A DNA stretch of 64,000 nucleotides from Gayadomonas joobiniege G7 (lineage in GTDB: Bacteria > Pseudomonadota > Gammaproteobacteria > Enterobacterales > Alteromonadaceae): contig NZ_AMRX01000001.1 in the NCBI RefSeq assembly GCF_000300815.1, positions 124,001 through 188,000 on the forward strand, read 5' to 3'. The notes beneath the pieces are model-generated. The model was not told where the DNA came from and made no database searches. It saw only the letters and a program-made list of their open reading frames with translations. Both the position numbers and the translations under genes were made by a program. This document shows, piece after piece, positions 43,700 through 48,571 of this stretch (position 1 is the stretch's first letter; every line of letters starts with the position of its first letter).

Positions 43700-44836
43700 A
43701 TGCCGTTAAGTGATAAACAGTTAGAAAAACTGGCCAAACAAATTAAACAATGGGCACTCAGTCTGGGCTTTCAGCAAGTTGGCATTAGTGATCTAGACTT
43801 AACTGAGCATGAAGCCGCTCTACAAAACTGGCTAGATAAAGGCTACCATGGCGAGATGGATTATATGGCGCGCCATGGTACGCTCAGAACCCGACCTGCA
43901 GAACTGCATCCGGGTAGCGTACGCTGTATCAGCGTACGAATGGATTACCTCCCCCCCAAAGCCGGCTTTGCCAAAACTTTAAAAAATCCACATAAGGCCT
44001 ATATTAGCCGTTATGCATTAGGTCGTGACTATCATAAAACGCTACGTAATAAACTAAAAAAACTGGGCCAAATCATCGAACAGCAAACCGAATTAAATAT
44101 AGGTTTTCGCCCCTTTGTTGATTCAGCGCCTATTTTAGAGCGGCCTCTGGCAGTGAAAGCCGGCCTAGGTTGGACAGGTAAGCATAGTTTAGTATTAGAT
44201 GCCGAATCAGGTAGCTGGTTTTTTTTAGGTGAACTTTTAATTAATCTACCACTACCAGTTGATCATCCCAAAACAGACCAATGCGGAAGCTGCGTTGCTT
44301 GCATGACCATTTGCCCCACTAATGCGATTGTTGAGCCGTATCAAGTAGACGCCAATAAATGTATCAGCTATTTAACAATAGAATACAAAGGCAGTATTCC
44401 GCTGGCTTATCGCAAGGCGATCGGCAATCGAATATACGGTTGTGACGACTGCCAGTTGATCTGTCCATGGAACCGGTTTGCTAAGGTCACTAGTGAAGGT
44501 GACTTTAGCCCTCGCCAACAAATCGACCAAGCTGATTTATTAAGCCTTTGGCAGTGGTCAGAGCAGACATTTTTAAACAATACCCAAGGCTCTGCCATCC
44601 GCCGCATAGGTTATCGCTTTTGGCAGCGTAATTTAGCGGTTGCTATGGGCAATGCGCCTGCTTCCGACGCGCTTTTAACAGCATTAAAGGCGCGCTTACC
44701 CCAAGTTTCTGATGATGTGCTGTTAAGCGAGCATATTGAATGGGCGATTAAAGAACAACAAGCCGGTTTTCAACAAAATAATAAAACCCGACGTTTGATA
44801 AAAGCAGTTGAAAAAGGCCTGCCACGCGACGCTTGA
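43700..44836 (+). CDS. queG: Epoxyqueuosine reductase
   Basis: 378 aa. QueG performs the last step of queuosine synthesis in tRNA, reducing epoxyqueuosine with cobalamin and two [4Fe-4S] clusters. It has the cobalamin/active-site region RPFVDSAPILERPLAVKAG, the cluster motif CGSCVACMTICPTNAI near residue 195, and the second set YGCDDCQLICPWN near residue 247. The C-terminal HEAT-like part (about 300-375) is present. It is divergent from nnr. The gap to the next coding start (192 bases) holds the sigma-54 promoter and leader of the cyanate cassette. Confidence 0.96.
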   Translation: MPLSDKQLEKLAKQIKQWALSLGFQQVGISDLDLTEHEAALQNWLDKGYHGEMDYMARHGTLRTRPAELHPGSVRCISVRMDYLPPKAGFAKTLKNPHKAYISRYALGRDYHKTLRNKLKKLGQIIEQQTELNIGFRPFVDSAPILERPLAVKAGLGWTGKHSLVLDAESGSWFFLGELLINLPLPVDHPKTDQCGSCVACMTICPTNAIVEPYQVDANKCISYLTIEYKGSIPLAYRKAIGNRIYGCDDCQLICPWNRFAKVTSEGDFSPRQQIDQADLLSLWQWSEQTFLNNTQGSAIRRIGYRFWQRNLAVAMGNAPASDALLTALKARLPQVSDDVLLSEHIEWAIKEQQAGFQQNNKTRRLIKAVEKGLPRDA

Positions 44837-44888
44837 ACACTTTTACCGCTTTTACGCTGTCGAAAGCGACCTTTACCCACTTTCGATT

Positions 44889-44905
44889 TTGGCACTTCTT
44901 TTGCA
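44889..44905 (+). promoter_or_regulatory. Sigma-54 (RpoN) promoter for the cynS cassette
   Basis: TTGGCAC-TTCTT-TTGCA places the invariant GG at 44891-44892 and GC at 44903-44904, exactly ten bases apart as required for -24/-12 promoters. TGGCAC and TTGCA both match consensus. Transcription should begin around 44915, leaving a leader of about 110 bases before cynS. This suggests control by nitrogen limitation. Confidence 0.8.
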
Positions 44906-44929
44906 CTATCCCTAACGACCATTATTAAA

Positions 44930-45010
44930 ACTATCTTTGGTGCACCAATAATGGTACTAAAATTACCACTTAACGGTATTAATCATCTAATTAAGCACCA
45001 CAAGGGTGCA
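44930..45010 (+). promoter_or_regulatory. NtrC-like dyads in the cynS leader
   Basis: AGCACCA-CAA-GGGTGCA (44994-45010) has the NtrC-site form GCACC-N5-GGTGC. TTGGTGCACCAA (44937-44948) is a perfect palindrome whose halves also form two near-sites, each with one extra base, with flanking ACTATCTT and ATAATGGT. All lie downstream of the sigma-54 promoter. The first dyad and ACCATTATT/AATAATGGT (44918-44926/44947-44955) could also fold as leader RNA hairpins. Confidence 0.5.
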
Positions 45011-45028
45011 TTGGATAAGGACGCTAAC

Positions 45029-45469
45029 ATGAATAAAGAAACTATGACGGATTTAATTGTACAAAAAAAGCTGGCTAAAGGGCTCAGCTGGGAGAAAATC
45101 GCCAATGATTTAGGTTTTTCGCCGGTATGGTTAACATCAGCCTGTTTGGGTATGAACAGCGCCCCAAAAGAAAAAGCAGCTAAAATCACTGCCTACTTAG
45201 ATTTACCAGATGCTGTGACAGAAGCGCTGATCGCTTACCCAACTAAAATATGGGACCAAGCGGTGCCAACGGACCCGCTTATTTATCGTCTATACGAAGT
45301 TGTGGGGGTTTACGGGGATACCTTAAAAGAAGTCATCCAAGAAAAATTTGGCGACGGGATTATGAGTGCAATCGACTTTTCAATGGAAGTCGACAAAATT
45401 GAAGATCCTAAAGGCGATCGTGTTTTGCTCACCTTAAACGGTAAGTTTTTACCCTACAAATCTTGGTAA
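45029..45469 (+). CDS. cynS: Cyanate hydratase (cyanase)
   Basis: 146 aa from the ATG at 45029, which has AAGGA seven bases upstream; a 26-residue longer frame would cover the leader and is not supported. Cyanase converts cyanate and bicarbonate to ammonia and carbon dioxide, giving nitrogen and detoxification. The helical N-terminal domain (GLSWEKIANDLGFSPVWLT) precedes the conserved active-site region VPTDPLIYRLYEVVGVYG (catalytic Arg and Glu) and EKFGDGIMSAIDF (catalytic Ser). It ends GKFLPYKSW, like E. coli GKYLPTKPF. It is the first gene of a three-gene unit behind a sigma-54 promoter. Confidence 0.95.
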   Translation: MNKETMTDLIVQKKLAKGLSWEKIANDLGFSPVWLTSACLGMNSAPKEKAAKITAYLDLPDAVTEALIAYPTKIWDQAVPTDPLIYRLYEVVGVYGDTLKEVIQEKFGDGIMSAIDFSMEVDKIEDPKGDRVLLTLNGKFLPYKSW

Positions 45470-45513
45470 ATATTCATTCTTTTATTCTAACATCCACTGA
45501 AGAGGACTGAGTT

Positions 45514-46323
45514 ATGTCTTATTTAGCACCCGCCGAATTTGCCACAAAAATGGTAGATGCCGGTGAATCTAAAATATTTATGTCGACTAAAGACACTTTA
45601 ATCCGTGCTTTTATGGCGGGCGCCATTTTAGCTTTAGCTGCCGTTTTTGCGGTTACCATTGCCGTGCAAACCGGTAGTTTTTTATTGGGAGCCATCTTAT
45701 TTCCTGTCGGTTTTTGCATGTTGTACCTTATGGGATTTGACCTGCTAACGGGTGTTTTTGTATTGGCTCCGCTGGCTTGGTTAGATAAAAGAGCTGGTGT
45801 CACAATTAGTGGTATTTTACGCAACTGGGGATTGGTTTTTGTTGGTAACTTTGCAGGTGCTCTCACGGTTGCCTTTATGATGTCTTTTATTTTTACCTAT
45901 GGTTATAACGTTGACGCGGGTGTCATTGGAGAGAAGATTGCTGGCATTGGTGAAGCGCGAACTCTAGGTTACGCAGAGCATGGTTTTGCCGGTTGGATGA
46001 CGATTTTTATCCGCGGCATGTTATGTAACTGGATGGTTTCTATGGGTGTTGTTGGCGCTATGATCTCAACCAATGTCAGCGGCAAGGTCATTGCCATGTG
46101 GATGCCGATATTTTTGTTCTTTTTCATGGGTTTTGAGCATTCGGTTGTGAATATGTTTTTGTTCCCATTCGGTATCATTATGGGCGGGGAATTTTCAGTT
46201 GCAGATTATCTTATTTGGAACGAAATACCAACGGCGCTAGGTAACCTAGTCGGTGGTCTTGCGTTTACAGGCTTAACCCTGTATTCAACTCACGTGCGAA
46301 CTTCACCTAAACGCAGTCGTTAA
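45514..46323 (+). CDS. Formate/nitrite transporter family channel (NirC/FocA type)
   Basis: 269 aa, six predicted membrane helices. FNT signatures are present: ILRNWGLVFVGNFAGA, MLCNWMVSMGVVG and the gate histidine in GFEHSVVNMFLFPFGI. FDLLTGVFVLAPLAW covers the conserved Thr loop. Such pentameric channels pass formate, nitrite, hydrosulfide or lactate. Lying 44 bases after cynS, its cargo could be nitrite, bicarbonate or cyanate itself; the sequence does not decide. FNT genes beside a PP2C/kinase gene are familiar to me from nitrate-assimilation loci of marine gammaproteobacteria, which supports a nitrogen role. Confidence 0.9.
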   Translation: MSYLAPAEFATKMVDAGESKIFMSTKDTLIRAFMAGAILALAAVFAVTIAVQTGSFLLGAILFPVGFCMLYLMGFDLLTGVFVLAPLAWLDKRAGVTISGILRNWGLVFVGNFAGALTVAFMMSFIFTYGYNVDAGVIGEKIAGIGEARTLGYAEHGFAGWMTIFIRGMLCNWMVSMGVVGAMISTNVSGKVIAMWMPIFLFFFMGFEHSVVNMFLFPFGIIMGGEFSVADYLIWNEIPTALGNLVGGLAFTGLTLYSTHVRTSPKRSR

Positions 46324-46340
46324 TAAACAAAGGTATGGGT

Positions 46341-48077
46341 ATGCAAGCATTAAAAGTGAGTATTGGGCAATACTCTGAACAGGGTAAAAAAAGCCTCAAC
46401 CAAGATAGTATTAATGCGCATCACCCAGATGGCTGGACGTTAGATATTAAAGGGGTTGCTTTAGCCATTGCCGATGGCATCAGCCCCAGTCCTCATAGCC
46501 ATCAGGCAAGCGAAATTGCCGTTAAGAATTTTATTAGTGATTATTATAGTACGCCAGAGAGCTGGACCGTAAAAACCGCGGGTTTAAAAGTCTGCCAAGC
46601 GCTTAATCGGTGGTTATACAACCAAACCATGCAAGGTGCGGGTCGTTACAATAAAGAAAAGGGCTATGTTTGCACCTTCAGTGGTTTAGTTTTAAAAAAC
46701 CAAACAGCGCATGTTTTTCATATTGGTGACTCTCGCATTTACCACATTAGTAAAACTGGTATTGAGCAGTTAAGTAAAGATCATAGGATTTGGACCAGTG
46801 CCAATCATAGCTATTTATCTCAAGCCCTTGGTATAGAACCACAAGCTGAATTTGAATATTTTAGTTGCCGTATTGAACGAGGTGATATTTTATTGTTGGT
46901 TACCGACGGTGTGTACGAATATTTACCAATGGCTGAGATTTCAAATGAACTTAAACGGGATCCTCGTAATTTAAATCAGTTAGCTAAACGTTTATGTAAA
47001 ACCGCATTGGCGCGAGGCAGTAAAGACAACTTAAGCCTGCAAATTGCGCGCATTGATCAACTGCCCGAGCAATTACATTGGCAACTACAAAAAGATGTTG
47101 AACAGCTCCCCATATTAAAGCAGTTGGCGGCTGGTCAACAAGTTGATCAATACCGATTGATCCGGCAGCTCCATCACAGCAGTCGCAGCCAGGTGTTTCT
47201 TGCCCAAGATACCGATAAAAAATACTATGCAATTAAATTCCCTAGTGGCGAAAGTGCTCAAAACCCCGAGTTTTTGAGTAAACTATTAACCGAAGAGTGG
47301 GTCGCACGCCGCATCAATAGTGTTCATGTTGTAAATAGCCCACCTCAATCCACTGCAAAAAGCGCGCTCTACGTAGTGACTGAATACGCCGGCAACCAGA
47401 CGCTGGCTCAATGGGCAGTTGATAATCCAACCCCATCGTTAACTCTGGTCAGGGACATTTTACAGCAGCTGTGTAAGGGGCTGTATGCTTTTCACCGTAA
47501 AGACATGTTACACCAGGATATACGGCCGGAAAATATTATCATCGATGAAGACGGCACCATTAAAATTGCTGATTTTGGTTCTGTTTATATTCAAGGTATC
47601 GGCGAGTTAGAAAACAGTCCACCAGCAACATATCTGCAGGGCACAGCTTTATATAGTGCTCCAGAATATTTTTTAGGTGAACAAGGCAGTACAAGCTCGG
47701 ATCTTTTTTCTATCGCAGTACTTGCGTATTATCTATTAACAGGCCAGTATCCGTACGGTAATAAGGTGGCAAGATGCAAATCATTAGCTTCTCAAAGGGC
47801 ATTGAGCTACACAGATATTCGCCATTACCGAGAAGATATTCCCAATTGGGTAGACAAAACACTCGCACGCGCTTTGGCCGTGCAACCCAATCTTAGATAT
47901 GATAGTTTGTTTGAGTTTTTACAAGACTTAAACCGACCCAACCCAAGCTATTTAAAACCGCAAAAATTACCGCTAATACAGCGTAATCCAATGGCTTTTT
48001 GGCAAGGGTTAAGTGGTATTTTAATAATCGTCTGTGGTTATTTAGCCTGGTTATTACACCAGGCCGGCTGTGTTTAA
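46341..48077 (+). CDS. Fused PP2C-type phosphatase and Ser/Thr protein kinase
   Basis: 578 aa from the ATG at 46341, seven bases after AAAGG; the ATG at 46335 is too close to that site. A PP2C domain (about 1-235; LNQDSINAHHPDG, ALAIADGIS, HIGDSRIYH, LLVTDGVYE, SKDNLSLQI) is joined to a kinase (about 265-530). The kinase has AIKFPSGE as the ATP lysine, a catalytic loop LHQDIRPENIIID with His-Gln-Asp in place of His-Arg-Asp, and ADFGSVYI. The glycine loop is poor (LHHSSRSQVFLA). A membrane helix closes the C-terminus. It starts 17 bases after the FNT gene and may switch that channel by phosphorylation. It overlaps the end of the convergent ilvH. Confidence 0.9.
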   Translation: MQALKVSIGQYSEQGKKSLNQDSINAHHPDGWTLDIKGVALAIADGISPSPHSHQASEIAVKNFISDYYSTPESWTVKTAGLKVCQALNRWLYNQTMQGAGRYNKEKGYVCTFSGLVLKNQTAHVFHIGDSRIYHISKTGIEQLSKDHRIWTSANHSYLSQALGIEPQAEFEYFSCRIERGDILLLVTDGVYEYLPMAEISNELKRDPRNLNQLAKRLCKTALARGSKDNLSLQIARIDQLPEQLHWQLQKDVEQLPILKQLAAGQQVDQYRLIRQLHHSSRSQVFLAQDTDKKYYAIKFPSGESAQNPEFLSKLLTEEWVARRINSVHVVNSPPQSTAKSALYVVTEYAGNQTLAQWAVDNPTPSLTLVRDILQQLCKGLYAFHRKDMLHQDIRPENIIIDEDGTIKIADFGSVYIQGIGELENSPPATYLQGTALYSAPEYFLGEQGSTSSDLFSIAVLAYYLLTGQYPYGNKVARCKSLASQRALSYTDIRHYREDIPNWVDKTLARALAVQPNLRYDSLFEFLQDLNRPNPSYLKPQKLPLIQRNPMAFWQGLSGILIIVCGYLAWLLHQAGCV

Positions 48078-48571
48078 AAACGCAGTGATTTTTCGCCACG
48101 TGATAAGCCTGTGACCCCAGTTCGAGAGACTTCAATAATTTCAGCTTCGCTGCGGACTGCTTCAATAAAAGCGTCTAACTTACTGGTTGTGCCAACAATT
48201 TGAACGACATAAGTAGAAGTAGATACATCGACAATTTGCGCTCTGAAAATATCACTTAAGCCTTTTATTTCGGCTCGAGTGCTTAAGCTATCGACTTTAA
48301 TTTTAATCAGCATTAATTCACGCTCGATATGCTCCCCTTCAGTGATATCCTGAATTTTAAGCACATCGATAAGCTTATTTACTTGTTTGGTGATCTGTTC
48401 AATAACCTTATCATCACCTTCTGTGATCACTGTTAAGCGCGACAGAGTTTCATCATCCGTTGGTGCAACGGTCAAACTTTCGATATTGTAACCACGCTGC
48501 GAAAATAAACCGACAATGCGGGATAAAGCACCAGGCTCATTTTCTAATAATACAGACAAGATTCTTCTCAT
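48074..48571 (-). CDS. ilvH: Acetolactate synthase small (regulatory) subunit
   Basis: 165 aa. The N-terminal ACT domain (RRILSVLLENEPGALSRIVG, FSQRGYNIESLTVAPTDDE) binds valine and gives feedback control; the C-terminal half (EIIEVSRTGVTGLSRG) completes it. Together with IlvI it forms AHAS isozyme III. It starts at the last base of the ilvI stop codon, so the subunits are coupled. It converges with the phosphatase-kinase gene, overlapping by four bases. Confidence 0.97.
   Translation of the reverse strand: MRRILSVLLENEPGALSRIVGLFSQRGYNIESLTVAPTDDETLSRLTVITEGDDKVIEQITKQVNKLIDVLKIQDITEGEHIERELMLIKIKVDSLSTRAEIKGLSDIFRAQIVDVSTSTYVVQIVGTTSKLDAFIEAVRSEAEIIEVSRTGVTGLSRGEKSLRF

Follow-up and report, generated by a model that had tools for sequence, protein, structure and literature searches.

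A predicted NtrC/sigma-54-controlled operon of Gayadomonas joobiniege joins a NirC-alpha-type FNT channel, a membrane-anchored phosphatase-kinase and a cyanase

In the genome of Gayadomonas joobiniege G7, a 64,000-nt stretch of contig NZ_AMRX01000001.1 (positions 124,001 to 188,000, forward strand; hereafter the window, meaning the whole stretch analysed) carries three adjacent genes, which encode the cyanase CynS, a channel of the FNT family and a fusion of a PP2C phosphatase with a Ser/Thr kinase. Based on sequence evidence we read them, with moderate confidence, as an operon induced by NtrC and sigma-54, in which a NirC-alpha type channel would admit nitrite, with cyanate as a probable second substrate, and would have its opening set by its own kinase/phosphatase. 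The constant core of the arrangement is the channel together with the kinase; cynS is an optional third gene and nirB another partner. An earlier note on this DNA had described the run as a dedicated cyanate cassette under nitrogen-starvation control, and of these two claims the analysis reported here keeps the control and gives up the cassette as the core.

The genes follow one another on the forward strand, with cynS at 45029..45469 (146 amino acids), the FNT gene at 45514..46323 (269 amino acids) and the kinase gene at 46341..48077. Between the first two lie 44 bases and between the last two 17, as the earlier note had it, when counted from the second kinase ATG (46341; 578 amino acids), or 11 from the first (46335; 580 amino acids). 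The second ATG is better spaced from the AAAGG than the first, and for cynS the start is the ATG at 45029, the longer open reading frame from 44951 being a mechanical extension. Each product belongs to its family: CynS scores above the cut-offs of PF02560, PF21291 and TIGR00673 (169.6 vs 113.3 bits for the last) and can be aligned to 1dw9 in a region (residues 6-144) that takes in the YR.YE and SAI.F stretches, which we take to contain the catalytic residues of cyanase (Arg, Glu, Ser); the channel matches PF01226 with 216.6 bits, and the fusion matches both PF13672 (64.5 bits, with the N.D, ADG, DG and DN motifs kept) and PF00069. The run appears to be a real, conserved operon with sites of the NtrC/sigma-54 type, the three genes presumably being transcribed together.

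The earlier note had proposed a search for the same gene order, and two samples describe its spread. In a scan of named genomes the best 80 loci were kept, so that proportions tilt to close relatives; they include loci of Alteromonas, Marinobacter, Pseudomonas, Stutzerimonas, Microbulbifer, Methylomonas and Halomonas, as well as two Campylobacterota. A fairer sample is given by 274 genomes of the class, searched with the window FNT protein. Channel and kinase stand in one run in 77 of the best 80 named loci, while cynS is inside the run in only 23 of them and nirB is found there, on the same strand and without cynS, in 24. The place of cynS in the run varies: among the 57 cyanases placed in a tree it comes first in 4 runs, in the middle in 13 and last in 17. 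In most nirB-linked cassettes nirB precedes the channel, and where it does so a gap of 0.4-0.7 kb could accommodate a nirD. Among the class genomes, 33 of the 274 matched and fell into two groups, the window's own plus 25 at 61-84% identity (the FNT subfamily, 26 genomes) and 7 at 40% or less, whose 9 low-identity FNT places are near neither kinase nor cynS. In 21 of the 26 subfamily genomes channel and kinase are no more than 1.5 kb apart (in 19 of them on one strand); cynS shares the strand of the channel at a distance of up to 2 kb in 13 genomes and is 2.3 kb off in one more.

The class of the channel was assigned by the signature residues given in PMC5525234, where NirC-alpha channels have Phe at FocA L79, Val at A212, Val, Leu or Ile at F90 and a basic residue at L37. 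Mapped on FocA, the window channel carries this signature, and its relatives keep it: F67 and V212 in 105/105, L78 in 104/105 and R31 in 25/25. The central His of the FNT family (H209) and the Phe residues of its constriction (F63 and F202) are likewise present in all 105 rows. With this protein the NCBIfam models for FocA (TIGR04060, 129.3 vs 290.1), NirC (NF008595, 43.7 vs 293) and fnt (TIGR00790, 143.8 vs 232.3) all stay below their cut-offs.

Nitrite reduction accompanies this channel constantly, and cyanase does so often. Of the 26 subfamily genomes 23 have a NirB match, compared with 101 of the 248 others (p = 3.6e-6); of the remaining three, G171 and G085 have a NirA-family protein (NF007126 over cut-off, the CobG model TIGR02435 being passed too), while in G101 a C-terminal fragment of NirB lies close to the end of a contig and scores 394 bits, which is less than the model requires. 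Nitrite reductase genes are therefore present in 26/26 genomes, one of them partial, a proportion that has no exact background among the 248 others, since NirA was sought in the subfamily genomes only. The NirB-less genomes had been considered as proof of a cyanate-only role, and this was dropped in view of the same NirA-family proteins and partial NirB. A cynS gene occurs in 17/26 subfamily genomes vs 20/248 others (p = 5e-11), the 20 including 4 under the family cut-off. The best match of the window channel in the PDB is the algal protein LCIA, whose role we take to concern bicarbonate. Of the three substrates offered by the earlier note (cyanate, bicarbonate or nitrite), nitrite is thus the best supported by signature and genome content and cyanate is possible; for bicarbonate there is nothing specific beyond the LCIA match.

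It is quite improbable that the protein serves CynS and conducts mainly cyanate (or bicarbonate). The enrichment of cynS in the subfamily genomes, the LCIA match and the neighbourhood of cynS and FNT genes in nitrifiers (PMC10753782) would fit such a role; however, the same channel occurs in 9/26 genomes that have no cynS match at all, cynS is exchanged with nirB in the run, and the pore is of the NirC-alpha type. Because of these genomes, and since the partner labels are mixed on the channel tree, a dedicated cyanate or bicarbonate channel was dropped as the core of the system.

When 105 channels are placed in a tree, rows with cynS, rows with nirB and the others intermingle; the labels require 27 changes (minimum 2) and are clustered as well, the mean after shuffling being 48.4. 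The starred branches force at least 4 changes for cynS, at least 4 for neither partner and 2 for nirB, and in Alteromonas one cynS-linked and one nirB-linked channel are tree neighbours (support 90, not starred). Eight pore columns were checked and do not differ among the channels but for one row. With partners mixed on the tree and pore columns unchanged, one channel type therefore appears to serve either enzyme. One cassette is represented twice (L046 and L148), so that the 105 channels, the 57 cyanases and the 102 cassettes used below contain at least one duplicate. On the same contig as L046, and downstream of that cassette, there is a second, interrupted cyanase gene with one TGA inside (L046:3025-3351). 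In G085, where cynS is elsewhere, the FNT gene is in two pieces (L071:5280-6084), either an interrupted gene or a sequencing error.

A narrower reading would make the FNT protein a channel for nitrite only, with the kinase regulating nitrite entry alone and cynS belonging to the same NtrC/sigma-54 regulon as another nitrogen scavenger, clearing, for instance, internal cyanate from carbamoyl phosphate. We consider this rather unlikely, even though nitrite reductase genes are the more constant companion (26/26 vs 17/26 for cynS), 8 class genomes have the channel-kinase pair and no cynS match anywhere, and NitM, a characterised cyanobacterial FNT protein, takes nitrite in an uptake that cyanate does not inhibit (PMC4390861). 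Against it stands the occurrence of cynS inside the run, at three positions and in different lineages, and also the short gaps of the run, too narrow to hold a second cyanate importer at that place (no search covered genes beyond it). By contrast, at least 5 of the 20 cynS genes outside such cassettes come after a trio of genes resembling an ABC transporter, as judged by gene lengths, the families having been checked for one trio (L194). Two genes directly downstream of such non-cassette cynS genes (L188:5607-6545 and L185:5340-6662) gave no Pfam match at 1e-5.

Upstream of cynS, the -24/-12 promoter that the earlier note had pointed out, with exact spacing, was found at 44890..44905 on the forward strand (TGGCACTTCTTTTGCA, an exact TGGCAC-N5-TTGCA). 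It is the sole exact match within the window. Rarity across the whole 3.9-Mb genome was tried as proof and dropped, 2 exact matches being found vs 3 for the reversed-pattern control. What makes the site convincing is its conservation ahead of related cassettes, a lone exact match being within chance. In a scan of the 400 bases that precede the first gene of each cassette, with GG and GC fixed and the best -24/-12 match scored (leaving out L064, L065 and L068, where the FNT gene is near cobA or nirB, and L071 with its broken FNT gene), a site with at most 1 mismatch precedes 43/102 cassettes, compared with 0.2 in shuffles (mononucleotide, as for the palindrome below), 2 in the reverse complement and 1 in a coding control taken from inside the genes. 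At up to 2 mismatches the count is 71/102, the window included, vs 2.5, 6 and 14, respectively, and by partner such sites precede 31/36 cassettes with cynS, 32/42 with neither and 8/24 with nirB.

A perfect NtrC-type palindrome, GCACC-N5-GGTGC, is found at 44995..45009 on the forward strand, 105 bp downstream of the -24 element, and is an addition to the earlier note. It recurs with at most one mismatch in 28/102 cassettes (6 perfect, the window among them, and 22 with one mismatch) vs 1.8 in shuffles, and controls with N4 and N6 spacing stay at background (1/102 and 3/102). The two elements form 26 pairs in 25 cassettes, with the palindrome upstream of the promoter in 25 of the pairs and, in 23 of these, at 40-130 bp. 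The genome has rpoN and one ntrC over the family cut-off. By sequence the site thus has the make-up of a sigma-54 promoter, which is TGGCAC-N5-TTGCW plus a site for an activator at a workable distance, and the conserved sites with the right spacing strongly support nitrogen-starvation control through sigma-54 and NtrC, as had been proposed. That the -24/-12 match is coincidental, cynS being read from another promoter, seems to us highly improbable: exact matches are indeed no commoner in the genome than those of the reversed control, and there is a sigma-70-like match at 44925-44952, itself within chance (6 found vs 7.7 expected from shuffles), but position, orientation and paired NtrC-type sites are conserved across the family.

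Between the promoter and the NtrC-type site, at 44937..44948, lies a 12-base perfect palindrome read from the sequence (TTGGTGCACCAA; no strand assigned), possibly a second, imperfect NtrC-like site (TGCACC-N6-GGTAC) or the site of another regulator. The other exact -24/-12 site of the genome (L006:4856-4871, or C1:51855-51870, minus strand) stands ahead of a purine/allantoate degradation operon that includes allantoate amidohydrolase and 8-oxoguanine deaminase, another nitrogen-scavenging set. An NtrC-type site was considered at this second promoter and rejected, the match nearby having 2 mismatches and being within chance.

The third product combines its phosphatase with a kinase domain, and most of the catalytic motifs are conserved in the family. 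The kinase Lys, Glu, catalytic Asp, Asn, DFG Asp and APE are each present in 90% or more of 96 FNT-linked kinases, and a predicted C-terminal hydrophobic segment, in agreement with the membrane tether of the earlier note, is found in 90/96 of them and in 19/20 NasA-linked kinases. A Hanks-type Gly-rich loop and the Lys of the catalytic loop are lacking in the window protein, which has LHHSSRSQVF and HQDIRPEN in their places (residues 275-292 and 392-401). In the class genomes, homologues of the kinase occupy 112 places in 94/274 genomes, and their neighbours within 1.5 kb are a subfamily FNT in 21, a transporter of the NarK/NasA type in 69, nirB in 7 more and none of these in 15 (three of which are partial or at a contig start). 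The kinase is therefore beside a subfamily FNT or a nitrate transporter in 90/112 places. When 126 kinases are arranged in a tree, those linked to an FNT gene and those linked to NasA fall for the most part into different clades, with 7 changes for three labels, a pattern that enzymes specific to their partners would be expected to show. Ten genomes, the window's included, keep one kinase of each kind. The second PP2C-kinase of the window's own genome (L005:10140-13327, C7) is 38% identical and its gene overlaps by 1 base the preceding gene for a NarK-family transporter (TIGR00886 over cut-off); the locus adjoins genes read as nirB and cobA (nirB by reading its translation).

The kinase might instead not act on the channel and be a general nitrogen-status kinase/phosphatase with a soluble target (PII, nitrate or nitrite reductase, NtrBC), found in transporter operons for co-expression only. 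Its relatives do adjoin two unrelated transporter folds, as well as nirB alone in 7 places, and the 15 places without any of these neighbours would also suit it. Nevertheless, the hydrophobic anchor, the largely separate clades and the retention of both kinds of kinase in 10 genomes make a soluble target the less probable case in our judgement. The idea of the earlier note that the kinase may switch the channel is strengthened by the very stable linkage of the two genes.

Gene content, the conserved promoter and NtrC-type site, linkage, channel class and the catalytic motifs were observed directly, and from them we infer co-transcription, substrates, kinase target and the direction of the switch. 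Upon nitrogen limitation, phosphorylated NtrC would drive RNA polymerase with sigma-54 at 44890-44905, and cynS, the FNT gene and the kinase gene would be expressed as one operon. The channel would admit nitrite and, as the two are alike in being small monovalent anions, most likely cyanate as well; nitrite would be reduced to ammonium by NirB, whose gene lies at another place in the genome, and CynS would convert cyanate to ammonia and CO2. As both anions are toxic in excess, the membrane-anchored kinase/phosphatase would set the open fraction of the channel by reversible phosphorylation. The first candidate site is Thr263 in the C-terminal tail of the channel (codon 46300..46302, forward strand), which is Thr in 99/99 kinase-linked rows and in 4/6 rows without a neighbouring kinase. 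It comes right after the Arg aligned with FocA R280, a residue required for formate uptake (PMC5572259). Since the rows are related, this conservation is a lead and not a proof, and phosphorylation of Thr263 is a guess.

Several observations weigh against this mechanism. The channel lacks a kinase within 1.5 kb in 5/26 class genomes, the nitrite reductase count has the incomplete background given above, and NitM uptake is indifferent to cyanate. Kinase activity is not certain, because the loop is without its consensus glycines in FNT- and NasA-linked kinases alike and the catalytic loop mostly has Arg (HQDLRP) in the FNT-linked ones, in place of the Lys (HQDLKP) of the NasA-linked ones. A near-consensus promoter precedes just 8/24 nirB-linked cassettes, probably because these are internal to nirB operons. 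Finally, the palindrome of the window is alone among the 26 pairs in lying downstream of its promoter (+105) and, taken by itself, is within chance (2 matches at up to 1 mismatch in 64 kb, 1.18 expected). Enhancer sites are able to act from downstream, and this one might equally tune or repress.

The paralogue in the nas operon would act likewise on the nitrate transporter. More broadly, membrane-anchored kinase/phosphatases could gate the import of nitrogen anions post-translationally as a general device of Pseudomonadota and some Campylobacterota, with the NirC-alpha nitrite/cyanate channel controlled by one clade, the nitrate transporter of the NarK/NasA type by a second, and both belonging to the nitrogen response run by NtrC and sigma-54. 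We put this forward tentatively, as an idea about as easily wrong as right. If true, it would do by Ser/Thr phosphorylation what the PII-dependent ammonium switch does for the uptake of nitrate, nitrite and cyanate in cyanobacteria. For the problem of how bacteria prevent a toxic influx of nitrite through FNT channels, the conserved neighbouring kinase/phosphatase is a concrete candidate, with Thr263, beside the counterpart of FocA R280, as a candidate site; phosphorylation might open and close nitrogen-anion uptake, and the pairing also hints at what the kinases of nas operons do.

At the end of the run a terminator-like hairpin was located at 48067..48086 on the forward strand (by consensus scan only), and a search for RNA motifs in 44600-48400 found none at the gathering threshold. 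The flanking open reading frames were read as queG and ilvH/ilvB from their translations, with no family search, and the same reading saw no E. coli-type cyn partners (carbonic anhydrase, CynX, CynR) beside the window cynS.

Among known systems, the closest are the nirBD-linked NirC-alpha channels (PMC5525234) and NitM (PMC4390861), alike in being FNT proteins with a link to nitrite reductase. The constriction residues of the window channel are common to the former. Nitrogen deprivation is reported to induce NitM, cells overexpressing it died on nitrite medium, and a reversible regulator of it was called for (PMC4390861, section 8); its substrate and toxicity speak for nitrite as the first substrate and for entry that has to be kept in check. 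Unlike these channels, that of the window is paired with a kinase/phosphatase, and its family often with cynS too. Neighbouring cynS and focA/nirC genes are already known in nitrifiers, namely Nitrospira and Ca. Nitrososphaera gargensis, where the FNT protein was proposed, with no experiment, as a cyanate transporter; the available portion of that paper makes no mention of a kinase, sigma-54 or an NtrC site (PMC10753782). For the channel-kinase pair, no description was found in our literature searches.

Known cyanase operons share with the window the combination of this enzyme and an anion importer. In E. coli, cynTSX is under CynR, with carbonic anhydrase, CynX and CynR beside cynS; unlike it and the cynABD-cynS operons, the window run has an FNT channel, a kinase and NtrC/sigma-54 type sites, and no genes of the cynTSX or cynABD kind were read in or beside it. 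On the side of the kinase, the counterpart is the nas operon of Pseudomonas aeruginosa (nasA, PA1782, nirBD), in which PA1782 is presumably a member of this kinase family. The protein is named as a possible kinase in PMC8560001, and mutants in ntrB or ntrC have strongly lowered levels of the nasA and nirBD transcripts (PMC7214821). The nas transporter belongs to the major facilitator superfamily and not to FNT, and the NasA-linked kinases mostly form their own clade; nevertheless, with PA1782 P. aeruginosa would have a kinase beside its nitrate transporter, just as is found in the window's own genome.

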